Assembly: GCA_000697665.1 (NCBI GenBank)
Contig: KL197709.1
Coordinates: forward strand, 1,735,791 to 1,799,790
Reading direction: 5' to 3'
Source of the DNA: Jaapia argillacea MUCL 33604
Lineage: Eukaryota > Basidiomycota > Agaricomycetes > Jaapiales > Jaapiaceae
DNA: 64,000 nt
Every line of letters starts with the position of its first letter. Position 1 is the first letter of the stretch. The notes beneath the pieces are model-generated. The model saw nothing but the letters and a program-made list of their open reading frames with translations. It was not told where the DNA came from and searched no databases. Positions 1-64,000 of this stretch are shown here, one piece after another. A program made the translations under genes and the position numbers.

Positions 1-985
1 ATCAAACCATCAAAAGACGATTACCTCCCTTGCATTCGATCCGAATGCTAGTCGTCTTCTTACAGGAGGGTTGGATCATATGGTCAAGGTATACGACGTG
101 AGCACATACAAGGTAGTACATACTATGCGGTATCCTGCCCCCATCCTCTGCCTTGCCCTATCCGTACGTACCCATTCCGTTATATATAAGTCTTTGCTTA
201 TTCTGAGATTCCAACCCAGCCCGATGAAACACACATCGCAGCAGGGATGTCAGACGGAACACTCTCAGTCCGTCGACGCCAGCCCAAAGCCTCAGAAGCC
301 ACTGCATCTGACTCTCCATTCTCCGCTGCCGCTCTCCGCGCTGGCACCTTCGAATCCTTCCTCGGTGGTGCCATTCCTACCATTGGCCAAGGCCGTGTCA
401 AGAGCAAAGTCAAATCTAAACCTATAGGAGATGTAGACGAATTGCGAATAGAGAGCAAACGAAAGAAGAGATTAAAGGAGTACGATCGTTTATTGAAAAG
501 CTTCAAGTATTCGGCTGCCTTGGATTCGGTTTTGCGAAAGGTTTGATCGTTTTCGCCATTCCTCCCTGATAAAATGCTCAGACTCTTTCAGCAAGTCCCT
601 CCCGCAACCACGTTCTCGCTTGTACAAGAGCTCATTCATCGAGATGGCCTTCGGAGTGCCCTCTCTGGTCGAGACGACGTCCTATTGGAACCCATCCTTC
701 GGTTACTATTAAAGCATGTTACGGATCCCCGATTTGGAGAGATGGTTTGCGACATTGCAAGTTTGGTCATCGGTATGGCTCTCTTCTTTTTCGGTTTGTA
801 TGCTTATTCTGACCGTCCCTTCAGATATGTATGCTGCGGTTCTTGGCCAATCCCCTCTCATCGACTCCTTATTCCTTCGATTACGCAAAAAGGTTGCCCT
901 GGAGCTTCGATTTCAGAGAGAACTCGTCAAGACGAAGGGTGCCCTCGACATGGTGTTTGCCTCCGTTGCTTTGGCTGTAGTGTAG
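1..985 (+). CDS. UTP15: U3 snoRNP protein UTP15, 3' part
   Basis: This is the C-terminal portion of UTP15, a WD40 subunit of the t-UTP/UTP-A subcomplex of the small-subunit processome, which acts in the nucleolus on pre-rRNA transcription and processing. The first exon (1-163) reads through the end of the WD40 propeller (LTGGLDHMVKVYDVSTYKVV). After an intron at 164-219 comes the linker and the UTP15 C-terminal helical domain: the basic KRKKRLKEYDRLLKSFKY motif, then the segments on both sides of introns near 541-591 and 773-824. The stop is at 983-985. The start and first propeller blades lie beyond the left edge. The neighbour CTNNBL1 is convergent, only about 50 bp away. The identification rests on the well-conserved C-terminal domain and is firm; the exon junctions follow clear GT-AG signals. 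Confidence 0.92.
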
Positions 986-59806: not shown

Positions 59807-60165
59807 GGTTGTGGTATAGATGGACACGTTGGTGGTGCAAGTGTGAAAGTGATGACACAAAGATATGACACATGCTACTATCACGTGAATAACCCTAACC
59901 TCGATATGGCCTGCATCCAATCGGGGAACGCCGAAGGATAGAGCAGCACACCCCGCCCAGCAGCGCTCAACGTCAAGACTATCCTCAAGACCGACATAGT
60001 GAGTATTGCCCGCCCATTTTACTGTGCCAGCATGCTCTGGGAGGTGTCTACGGTGCATCTGTCCCTTTGGATCGAGCGAATGGAGCGACAAACAGGGTGG
60101 ATGGCTCCAGTCACCTCCAGATGCACTTGGCCACTTGGGTAACTTCAGCTAACGCCCCCTTACAG
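59807..60165 (+). promoter_or_regulatory. Divergent promoter and 5' UTR intron of RPL6
   Basis: This gap separates the SDT1-like start from the RPL6 start. The RPL6 ATG follows directly after ccccttacag, and a strong donor GTGAGT lies at 59999. A 5' UTR intron of about 167 nt (59999-60165) ending right at the start codon is therefore likely, as in many ribosomal protein genes. Confidence 0.55.
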
Positions 60166-60840
60166 ATGGCCCGCACAAAGCAAGACACACCCGCCACCAA
60201 AGAAGTCAAGGTCGGCGGCGACAAGAACGGCTCCACCCGCCTCATTCCCACATCCAAAGCCCCCCGTTACTACCCAGCAGAAGACGTCCACCAACCAAAG
60301 AAATCACGAAAAGTCCCTAAACCATCCAACCTCCGCTCATCCATCACTCCCGGTACCGTCTTGATCTTGCTCGCTGGCAGGTTTAGGGGAAAGCGGGTTG
60401 TCTTCTTGAAGCAGTTGGAGAGCGGCCTTTTGTTGGTCACTGGCCCTTACAAGGTTAATGGCGTCCCTCTGCGACGAGTTAGCCAGGCCTACGTTATCGC
60501 TACCTCCACCAAAGTTGACTTGGGCGACTTCAAGGTCTGTCTTTTTTCTCCGATTTCCCTTTTTCCTTGGGTCCTCAAATCGGAATAGGTCAATACCAAG
60601 ATCAACGACGCTTACTTTGGCAAATCAAAAGCCAAGGGTTCCGTCTCAGCAGAACACGAGTTCTTCGAGGATGGAAAGGCAAAGGAGAAGGAGGCTTTCC
60701 CCGAATCAAAGGCTGCAGATCAAAAGGAGGTTGACAAGGCCGTCATTGCTGGTATCAAAAAGACCGAGCATTTGGCAAAGTACTTGAAGGCCACTTGGGG
60801 GTTATCCAAGGGTCAGTTCCCTCATAGTATGGCGTTCTGA
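60166..60840 (+). CDS. RPL6: 60S ribosomal protein L6 (eL6)
   Basis: This is eukaryotic large-subunit protein eL6, 206 residues in two coding exons joined by a 54-nt intron (60535-60588, donor GTCTGT). It begins [20 protein letters not shown] and has the basic [20 protein letters not shown]. The core then reads [60 protein letters not shown] and KVDLGDFK. After the intron come [40 protein letters not shown] and the C-terminus [23 protein letters not shown]. These are the standard eL6 segments. It is divergent from the nucleotidase and convergent with the amine oxidase. Confidence 0.96.
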
Positions 60841-61180: not shown

Positions 61181-64000
61181 CTAAAACTCCAACTTAATCC
61201 TATGATACAACTCCGCCTCCCTCCTCATCTCCTCAATCCCCATACCCTCCTTAACCTTCCCATCAACCCCAAAAGCAGTCAACCCCCCATACTCAAACTC
61301 TCCCACCTTCTCCGGCACACAATTCTCCGGCTTCACTCCATAATCATCAAAAGTGAACGGAGCGCCGGGTGTGACGGGTGCACGGAGTAAGATGGCGTTG
61401 ATGGATTCGAGAGAGACGTCAGTATCGAAATAGTTGAGAGGTGTTAGGAAGAATGAGGAGGCTGCCATGTTGGTGCGGGTGTTGGGGACGTCTTCGGCTT
61501 GGGGCTGGTCAAATCCATTAGTCAGAGTTAAGAGAGGAGGGAAGGAAATAGGTACCAAGTGGTGCATCCCGACGTTCACCCAAGCAACCAAATCCTCCTG
61601 AGTGATATTCTCCCCATCAAAGAACTTGTGGAAATCCACAACAGGGTCCCCAGGCAAGTTCATATTCCACATACTACTCGAAGTAGGCTCCGTCTCCTTC
61701 CTCTTGGACACCGCAAGGTTATACCTCGCCCAATTCGCATTGTTCAACAGGCGTTTAGAGCCAACCACAGTCTACGATCAAGCGAGGGGAGTTAGAATCC
61801 CGAGCGACATGCTTATGCTGTGAGAAGGGCAACGTACGTTCCGAATCGGCGAATACCCAGGATGAATAGCATACCCCCTAGGGTTCCCCCACGAGTTCTT
61901 CTCCTCACTATTAACAAACGCATATCCACCCTGGAAATTCTCCGGCCAATTCAACAACGCCCCATCCTCATTCTCAATAATCTCTCTATTAATCTTTTGT
62001 TGGATAACTTCCGTTCCCCAATCTTCATCGAGCCACGGGTGCTCGACATGTTCGACGTGAGTCGTAGTGGAGAGGAGAGAGTTGGATAAGCCTGCTACGT
62101 CTAGATCGACCTTGTAGTTGATGACGTGATCGTGGAGGGAACCCACTGTGCAGAGGTTAGGAGTTAGGTCGTGTATGAGAGGAGAGGGAACGAACTGGAT
62201 GTATCACGGATCTGGGAACCGTATCCTGCTTGGAGGGGCTCCCAGTAGCCTCCTTGCAAGTAACCAGAGGCGGATAGGCGGACTTCGATAGTACCATCAA
62301 AGTGGAACATGTAGTCAAACTACAAACAAGCACGCCCATCAGTAAAATTCATGATCCGTCTTCAAGGGACTTACGACTGGAGACAAAACAGAGCGCCACG
62401 ATGTTTAACATGGGCTGTAGTCTGATGCAAGAGTGTGACTTACGATAGTCATAACTGATCAAGTCCACATCAGTCCAAATTCCTCCAACATCAACGAACG
62501 CACTCACTTTCCGACAGTACTGATACTCCTAATGGTCAAGACATACCCTCTAATCGATCCAAATTCGCCATCCATATACCCCGTGTGTCTAGAAATCGGT
62601 CTCCCACTATCCTGTTCGAAAATACAAATCGCGCGATCTCGAGAGATGCTGCCCAGAGGAGAATGGGTTGTGGCAGGGAGGTAGACCGCTTCGTAAGGAC
62701 AGTCGTAGCCTGGGATCATGTCTCGGACAGCTTGGCCCATGCCGAAGAATCGATCGAGCCAGGCGGTTGTGGCTTGCATCGGGTCGTTGCCGGCTAGAAA
62801 ACGGGTTAGTTAGTGCAAGAGGAGGAAATACCTGGGGGCCGTACCGTATTGCGCGAGGGCTTCTTGAGGTGCCAGCTGAACATTAGTAGGTTAGAACGCG
62901 CAACAACGAAACCATGGAGCGAGCGACGGTACCTCGTAGACCAGTCTCTCGTTCTTAAACCTGATATCCCAAAGACTCAATCCCATATCCCTATCGAAAG
63001 TTTAAGGTTAGACGCTAACTGGGTGGAGTGAACCACGAGGCTGACCTGTTGAAACCAAGGTATAATCCCCAACCCATCCAGCTGACATACTGTAACGTCC
63101 TGTCGACCCTGAACCTCAGGCCAGCGAAGGAAACTGAACGAGGTCCTGGGAGATGGTCAAGATCGCGAGGCTCCCCGATACGGTGCCTTGCGCTCCAAGA
63201 AAGGTCTTGTGTATCTCTCTGATCCGGACGATCAGGAAGTCGCTTCAATGTTCCGTTGTGGAAAGCATCCATGAAAGACTCCACCGAAGGGAAAACTTGG
63301 TGGTTATACACAATCTGCCAGAGGGCATATGAGGAACACCGCTTATGTCGATTTGGAATGGACTCACTTTGAGGAGGCTCCATTGAGAAGGATCGGTGCC
63401 GCTGACGTCCACGTAGTGGAAGAAGTTGATCGGGTGCAACCAAGGTCCAGGGATATTTCGTCGCCATGAGACCCACAATCGACGGAAGGAGCCATCGAAG
63501 CTGAACGGAGCACTCGCTCCTGCGATAAGGGTATCGTTGGGCAATCCGAGTGCCACACCGCCAAATAGTTCCTTTTTTGACGTCAAGACATCAGCGAGAT
63601 GACTTGGGATGACGGGGACGATATACCGACCTGAGTGGCCTCGGCTAGAAGGGGCATGTACTTGCCAGCCAAAGGAGTCAGCTCCGTTCCTCGAACGAAG
63701 CCACGGGCATGGTAAGGTATTTCATCGCGATGATAAATGTCCTTGAGTTCCTCCAGGCTTGTCTTTGAGGAAATCGGGAGCGGCCCAACGAGGTAGTCTT
63801 TAATGACAGGAACTGATCCATAATGGACAGTAACCCGCGCGTACTTGTCGGGAGGAGGGATCGTAGAAGGTGAGTTCAAGTATGCAACCGCCGCAGCCTT
63901 TGGTGGCTGATAGACCTCGATAAGGTAGATGAAGTTATCCGTGAGTTCTGCGAGGTCACTTTGAGTCAAATTCAACCCTCTATCCGGAGATTCGAGCCAT
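61181..64000 (-). CDS. Copper amine oxidase (5' end beyond the window)
   Basis: This enzyme oxidises primary amines to aldehydes with release of ammonia and H2O2, using copper and the self-made cofactor topaquinone (TPQ). The order of segments is GLNLTQSDLAELTDNFIYLI, ELTPLAGKYMPLLAEATQ, FHYVDVSGTDPSQWSLLK, RVDRTLQYVSWMGWGLYLGF and LWDIRFKNERLVYELAPQEA. The catalytic-base region is AWLDRFFGMGQAV, then YDCPYEAVYLPATTHSPLGS and AICIFEQDSGRPISRHTGY. The TPQ motif is TVGNYDYLFDYMFHFDG, with Tyr as first residue after Asn. Copper His pair: SLHDHVINYKVDLDVAG; third His: GMHHLPQAEDVPNTRTN. The C-terminus is complete (IEEMRREAELYHRIKLEF). At least a dozen introns, including the tiny exons at the TPQ site. 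The start lies beyond 64000. No signal sequence can be judged. Confidence 0.93.
62375..62376 (-). other. Predicted 2-nt microexon of the amine oxidase gene
   Basis: On the minus strand TC is flanked by tttgtctccag and GTAAGT. Its inclusion completes a CTC (Leu) codon between the 11-nt exon and the next exon, giving NYDY-L-FDYMF as in homologues. Skipping it makes a TGA codon directly after the TPQ motif. The flanking introns are 55 nt (62320-62374) and 67 nt (62377-62443). Confidence 0.7.
62444..62454 (-). other. 11-nt exon of the amine oxidase gene (TPQ codon)
   Basis: On the minus strand TTATGACTATC, with acceptor gatcag before it and GTAAGT after it. It carries the Tyr-Asp-Tyr part of NYDY, including the tyrosine that becomes topaquinone. 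The preceding intron (62455-62507) is 53 nt and splits the Asn codon (AA|T). Confidence 0.8.

Follow-up and report, generated by a model that had tools for sequence, protein, structure and literature searches.

Towards one end of a 64,000-nucleotide stretch of Jaapia argillacea DNA (hereafter the window), the two bases TC at positions 62376-62375 are very probably a genuine exon, spliced into the normal mRNA of a functional copper amine oxidase gene. Both the reading frame and a conserved motif need these bases, full acceptor and donor signals flank them, and the introns on either side are of normal size; the upstream one, intron B below, departs from the usual form in its branch point.

The gene lies on the minus strand and its 12 exons reach into the window from 64000 down to 61181, where the stop codon ends; the ATG is at 64326 in window numbering, i.e. 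outside the window, in flanking sequence taken from the genome contig. The exons join into a coding sequence of 2529 nt, made up of 842 codons and a stop codon and free of internal stops, and the introns measure, in gene order, 59, 53, 55, 57, 51, 53 (A), 67 (B), 55 (C), 50, 66 and 51 nt. Its sequence identifies the gene as one for a copper amine oxidase, as the preliminary description of this DNA had proposed: in a profile match with the spliced protein, residues 359-766 align to positions 2-406 of the 407 in PF01179, the Cu_amine_oxid domain (E 9.2e-122, 407.3 bits). A structure-sequence search returned 41 solved sequences, and the alignments to 3pgb (E 6.6e-137) and to the lysyl oxidase 1rky (2.4e-133) extend over most of the protein length with NYDY-x-F in register, which bears out the earlier claim that the joined pieces yield the family motif. 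NYDY occupies residues 515-518 of the spliced model and depends on the inclusion of exons 7 and 8. In copper amine oxidases the first Tyr of the NYD/EY motif becomes topaquinone, and by this family rule we take Tyr516, whose codon lies in exon 7, to be the cofactor tyrosine. His565, His567 and His733/His734 are presumably the copper ligands; in an alignment of the best 120 of 505 relatives the HxH pair (565, 567) is invariant and His733/His734 are conserved in at least 90%, and all four are present here. Activity and topaquinone formation are predicted from the family. By eye, a hydrophobic stretch resembling a single membrane anchor is seen near the N-terminus (residues ~31-51, exon 1, from 64326), and an eL6-like ribosomal protein in two exons lies downstream of the amine oxidase on the opposite strand (~60160-60840, plus strand).

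All features around the cofactor codon are on the minus strand. Exon 6 (62508..62793, 286 nt) ends ACT GTC GGA AA and is followed by intron A (62455..62507, 53 nt, GTGAGT...TCAG), which is in phase 2 within the Asn codon, scores 7.1 at the donor and 4.1 at the acceptor, and carries CTGAT 15 nt ahead of its 3' end. Exon 7 (62444..62454) is an 11-nt piece, TTATGACTATC, holding the last base of Asn515, the codons of Tyr516, Asp517 and Tyr518, and the first base of Leu519. Intron B (62377..62443, 67 nt, GTAAGT...CCAG, phase 1, donor 8.7, acceptor 5.5) separates it from exon 8 (62375..62376), the 2-nt TC that supplies bases 2 and 3 of Leu519, the codon being divided C/TC over exons 7 and 8. Intron C follows (62320..62374, 55 nt, GTAAGT...GTAG, phase 0, donor 7.8, acceptor 3.7, with CTGAT 19 nt ahead of its 3' end), and exon 9 (62196..62319, 124 nt) begins TTT GAC TAC (Phe-Asp-Tyr). 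Joined, the exons read STVGNYDYLFDYMFHFDGTIE within the 842-aa frame; the spliced junction in the model is GACTATC-TC-TTTGACTAC and the peptide across the cofactor site NYDYLFDYMFHFDG. The exon pieces and intron lengths given in the preliminary description proved exact, base by base, as did its GTGAGT/GTAAGT donors and AG acceptors.

When every GT/GC-AG route from TAT to TTTGAC is listed, allowing introns of at least 35 nt and a maximum of three of them, five routes stay in frame, and that through the TC exon is the sole one adding a single residue, which is what the relatives carry between NYDY and F. Its mean donor-plus-acceptor score per intron is 12.9, compared to 5.3 for the next-best route, whose GC donor scores -6.5 and whose product is six residues longer. 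Single-intron routes that end at other acceptors remain open in 30 cases, none of these acceptors scoring above 1.8. The earlier statement that every other AG runs into a stop is thus wrong, there being four further in-frame routes to TTTGAC besides these 30, all of which depend on weak splice sites and cost the protein conserved residues or insert new ones among them. When donor B is joined to acceptor C and TC is skipped, translation ends as NYDY-L-stop and the rest of the enzyme is lost; the TGA that had been predicted for this case is there, though three codons past the cofactor Tyr (the first of NYDY) and not directly after it. Keeping intron B while splicing C leads to a stop, the retained intron reading NYDYRKS; splicing B while retaining C reads NYDYLVS, with NYDYLVSPLKTDHEFY-stop; and the frame is shifted if exons 7 and 8 are both left out.

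Splice-site scores were taken from matrices built on 33 reference introns picked by eye: eight belong to the window gene and the others to its two paralogues (11 and 14), introns A, B and C being excluded. The reference introns range from 3.2 to 10.5 at the donor, from 1.5 to 7.0 at the acceptor and from 47 to 66 nt in size; all four sites of B and C fall inside these ranges, and B is 1 nt longer than the longest reference intron. Intron B has no match to the YTNAY branch-point pattern that 30 of the 33 reference introns contain, and its closest branch-like 5-mer is TTAAA, 28 nt ahead of the 3' end.

A site of this kind seldom arises by chance at this place. When the interior of the 124-nt interval was shuffled with its dinucleotides preserved, an equally strong 2-nt piece between AG and GT appeared in 7 of 20,000 shuffles; with all frame-mending lengths allowed (2, 5, 8 and so on, to a maximum of 20 nt), pieces of this strength appeared in 51 of the 20,000. 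The two strands of the window contain 477 AGNNGT sites, of which the TC site is the strongest. As a control on real DNA we considered 4122 overlapping 124-nt stretches, of which two contain an equally strong 2-nt piece and ten an equally strong frame-mending piece of 2-20 nt; because the TC site is the only 2-nt one of that strength in the window, the two stretches must both contain it. Across the 43.7-Mb genome, with both strands counted, the pattern YAGNNGTAAGT is found 419 times, or about 0.0006 times per 124 nt of one strand, and is not enriched genome-wide, its backwards control pattern occurring 1104 times. Such a site is therefore unremarkable on its own, and the case rests on its position.

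Other readings of the same bases have to be weighed against a 2-nt exon. The assembly could be in error, or the gene could have lost two bases, just before the GTAAGT at 62443, in which case exon 7 would be of 13 nt and followed by one phase-0 intron of 124 nt, within which CCAG-TC-GTAAGT would have arisen by chance. A paralogue on another contig does have a phase-0 intron at the same codon boundary, but the chance match would be of a strength reached in only those 7 shuffles, the fused intron would lie far beyond the 47-66 nt of the reference introns, both B and C have full donor and acceptor signals, and TATCGTAAG contains no homopolymer; we regard this reading as improbable. That the gene is decayed, with a frame-breaking lesion and no active enzyme produced, would agree with the frame stopping at NYDYL when the 2-nt exon is left out. 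We consider it very unlikely, given that the remaining 11 exons contain no stop and yield a frame of 842 codons when joined, that the protein is 83% identical to that of Heliocybe over residues 370-800, and that the histidines which are invariant, or nearly so, among the relatives are kept.

The main transcript might instead use weaker sites, such as the GTGGCG donor at 62399, which adds 15 residues, or an acceptor within exon 9, e.g. one ending at 62283. The open routes enumerated above make this conceivable, but routes that avoid the GTAAGT donors use donors scoring -6.5 to -0.6, the others have acceptors at the bottom of the reference range or below it (1.8 or less), and the products have conserved residues deleted or interrupted by insertions, so that such a form would be a very poor candidate for the main one. 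Finally, B and C could be parts of one complex intron, a stwintron, whose two-step removal would leave no exonic base behind. They are indeed two short adjoining introns in a fungal host, as is reported for stwintrons (PMC5639578), but a stop follows if the whole 124-nt interval is excised, and each intron has a complete donor and acceptor, neither interrupting the signals of the other. In a stwintron the internal intron interrupts a splice signal of the external one and no exonic base lies between them, which is not the arrangement found here; nor is that of recursive splicing at a zero-length exon (AG/GT, nothing kept), as two bases intervene and the frame needs them. We find the stwintron reading exceedingly unlikely.

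The used 2-nt exon agrees with a database protein of 842 aa (P0001), encoded on a contig that at 3,433,974 bases is as long as the one holding the window and identical to the spliced model letter for letter, which is support for Leu519 and the TC exon, not proof at the RNA level. Three amine oxidase loci were found in the genome: that in the window, L013 on contig C6 and L014 on contig C31. The C6 paralogue reads AATTACGATTACAAT, then gtatgt...ctcag, then TTCGACTAT, giving NYDYN/FDY, and so has one phase-0 intron, after the codon following NYDY, at the exact position of intron C, and neither A nor B. From this, intron C is probably the older and intron B the extra one. In the C31 paralogue an intron lies within the Glu codon of NYEY, and the window gene has its three introns in the NYD/EY region; all three loci have introns inside or directly after NYD/EY, at differing positions. 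To encode EDLVLWFN, the C6 paralogue also requires a tiny exon of its own, the 6-nt CGTCCT (L013:3955-3960), which is flanked by introns of 54 and 61 nt. Neither of two origins considered for the extra intron was retained. Tandem duplication finds no support in local alignments, whose scores were matched by shuffles in 383 of 1000 cases for B-C, 202 of 1000 for A-C and 964 of 1000 for A-B. As for an introner or repeat, the 206-nt stretch 62310-62515 matches itself alone in the genome within the limits of the search method.

Gene-finding programs often err at the cofactor motif in related fungi. Our statements on other species rest on annotated proteins, a scan of viral contigs for orthologous DNA having returned no relative. 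The relatives are the best 120 of 505 proteins, comprising P0001, 110 annotations from named organisms (a few species present twice, and a few non-agaricomycetes) and 9 sequences from SRA or metagenome data only. Counting as damage at least two gaps, or an insertion, in the eight-residue window 513-520, we find the motif damaged in 65 of the 110 annotated relatives, compared to a median of 1 of 110 over 400 such windows across the catalytic domain and a maximum of 19 of 110 away from residues 505-525. By a strict reading of the motif, 41 annotations are intact, 46 lack NYDY and 23 have NYDY but are broken after it. None of the nine SRA or metagenome sequences is damaged, all nine carrying NYDY-x-F. 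P0012 and P0046 look cDNA-like by their lengths, as their contigs are too short for the ORF plus introns such as those of the window gene. The two closest named organisms among the matches listed are Heliocybe sulcata, one of the Gloeophyllales, in which the motif is intact with Cys for Leu, and Neolentinus lepideus (82%), in which the protein jumps from IST to FDY. As a control family we took the best 120 of 1228 matches to the C6-type paralogue, a weak control in that these are mostly ascomycete proteins and metagenome ORFs; 107 of the 120 have the motif pattern and, by eye, the other 13 consist of 10 natural variants, two damaged proteins (P0125 and P0137) and one ambiguous (P0217).

Whether the 2-nt exon is old in the amine oxidase clade of Agaricomycetes (Gloeophyllales, Agaricales, Boletales, Polyporales), and so partly the cause of the damage in 65 of 110 relatives, we judge to be evenly balanced. 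We do not take the damage itself as proof of a shared 2-nt exon, since a clade-wide 13-nt exon 7 (T TAT GAC TAT NNN) between A and C could alone explain most of it; only the residues after NYDY or before FDY therefore bear on the question, and these suggest, indirectly, that the 2-nt exon may be shared as well. Of the 23 proteins broken after NYDY, eight continue with R, C or S and then a residue other than Val, compatible with an NGT phase-1 donor, two of the eight being ambiguous (P0084, CAY; P0108, NYEF-SES); four continue L-V, as a phase-0 donor after Leu would give, and 11 fit neither donor type in a simple way. Directly before FDY (or FEY, WDY), the 69 broken proteins include 14 with K, Q or E, as expected from a phase-0 NAG acceptor, while 11 have V, which fits AG/TN. 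For instance, Cyclocybe aegerita (P0096) and Agrocybe chaxingu (P0091), whose proteins are 87% identical with gaps counted, read NYDY-RES, which fits a C/GTGAGT donor, and NYDY-LVR, which fits C/TN and then a GTNCGN donor. Each thus gives one sign of what would be expected were both genes C/gtgagt...ag/TN/gtncgn. Similarly, Grifola (CNG ... RPQ-FDY) and Serpula (RNC ... DIK-FDY) show a phase-1-like start and a phase-0-like end. In P0047, P0097 and P0110, by eye, NYDY-H/N-GTIE fits a phase-1 donor joined to AG/AY within exon 9. Lentinula novae-zelandiae (P0042) was dropped as a phase-1 case: its G-A-S after NYDY fits, by eye, a phase-0 GC-AG donor (GCAAGY) where intron C lies in the Jaapia gene, so that the donor there may be other than GT.

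If the TC exon is used as we propose, B and C would be ordinary short fungal introns, each recognised through its own donor and acceptor, i.e. by intron definition. With only two bases between acceptor B and donor C they could hardly be handled simultaneously; once use of the exon is granted, their successive removal follows with near certainty. Removal of C first would give B a normal downstream exon, removal of B first would leave C with a 13-nt exon upstream, and either order would yield TAT-CTC-TTT (Tyr-Leu-Phe). The missing consensus branch point in B hints that C may leave before it. That the transcript is spliced in this way, and in which order, we infer from the genomic arrangement. 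For the plant gene APC11, Guo and Liu argued that exon definition is unable to serve a 1-nt exon and proposed stepwise intron-definition splicing (PMC4674806); as introns B and C are both of ordinary size for this genome, the same would apply to the Jaapia gene.

The TC exon is a candidate for the smallest class of exons, sited where an error truncates the enzyme or removes its cofactor site. The flanking introns are short enough to be transferred whole into a minigene, which makes the order of removal and the frequency of skipping directly testable. Additionally, a catalytic motif damaged more often than intact among the 110 annotated relatives will have misled function calls and enzyme mining.

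Among the literature matches listed there is no report of a fungal 2-nt exon or of a copper amine oxidase micro-exon, though several known systems are similar. In stwintrons, two adjoining fungal introns are likewise reported to be removed in succession, whereas here two coding bases remain in the predicted mRNA and no splice signal is interrupted (PMC5639578). The P450 genes of Phanerochaete, also a wood-decay basidiomycete, have many small introns and very short exons, the shortest reported there being of 6 bp (PMC1184071). Exons of a single base are described in plants, in APC11 (PMC4674806) and VPS55 (PMC8831610), so that the one-base plant exon mentioned in the preliminary description is real. 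These exons too are reported to be below 3 nt, essential to the frame and overlooked by annotation, with GTRAGT donors reported for VPS55 as a further likeness. They differ in being from plants and in having been tested via constructs, RNA-seq or RT-PCR, and the APC11 exon lies in a stretch initially annotated as one intron of 422 nt, well above the 124-nt interval of the Jaapia gene. Within fungi there is a likeness to the 1-nt exon of Fusarium CYP621A P450 genes, published in 2026: there too a fungal nuclear gene has a tiny exon within a conserved motif, the introns around it are of ordinary size, automated models are wrong at that place, and the exon was first inferred from the frame and from relatives (PMC12940212). 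It is of one base as against two, belongs to an ascomycete P450 and not to an amine oxidase, and is backed by 18 RNA reads and by the aligned DNA of many orthologues (PMC12940212). Placozoan mitochondria are reported to have a 1-bp exon (PMC5436844), and exons of 2-5 bp are recorded in Arabidopsis, Drosophila and human, as PMC12940212 relays from Volfovsky 2003. Two bases are thus no record, tiny exons as such being already known, and what is unusual in the Jaapia gene is the position of the exon at the cofactor codon together with the breadth of the annotation damage there.
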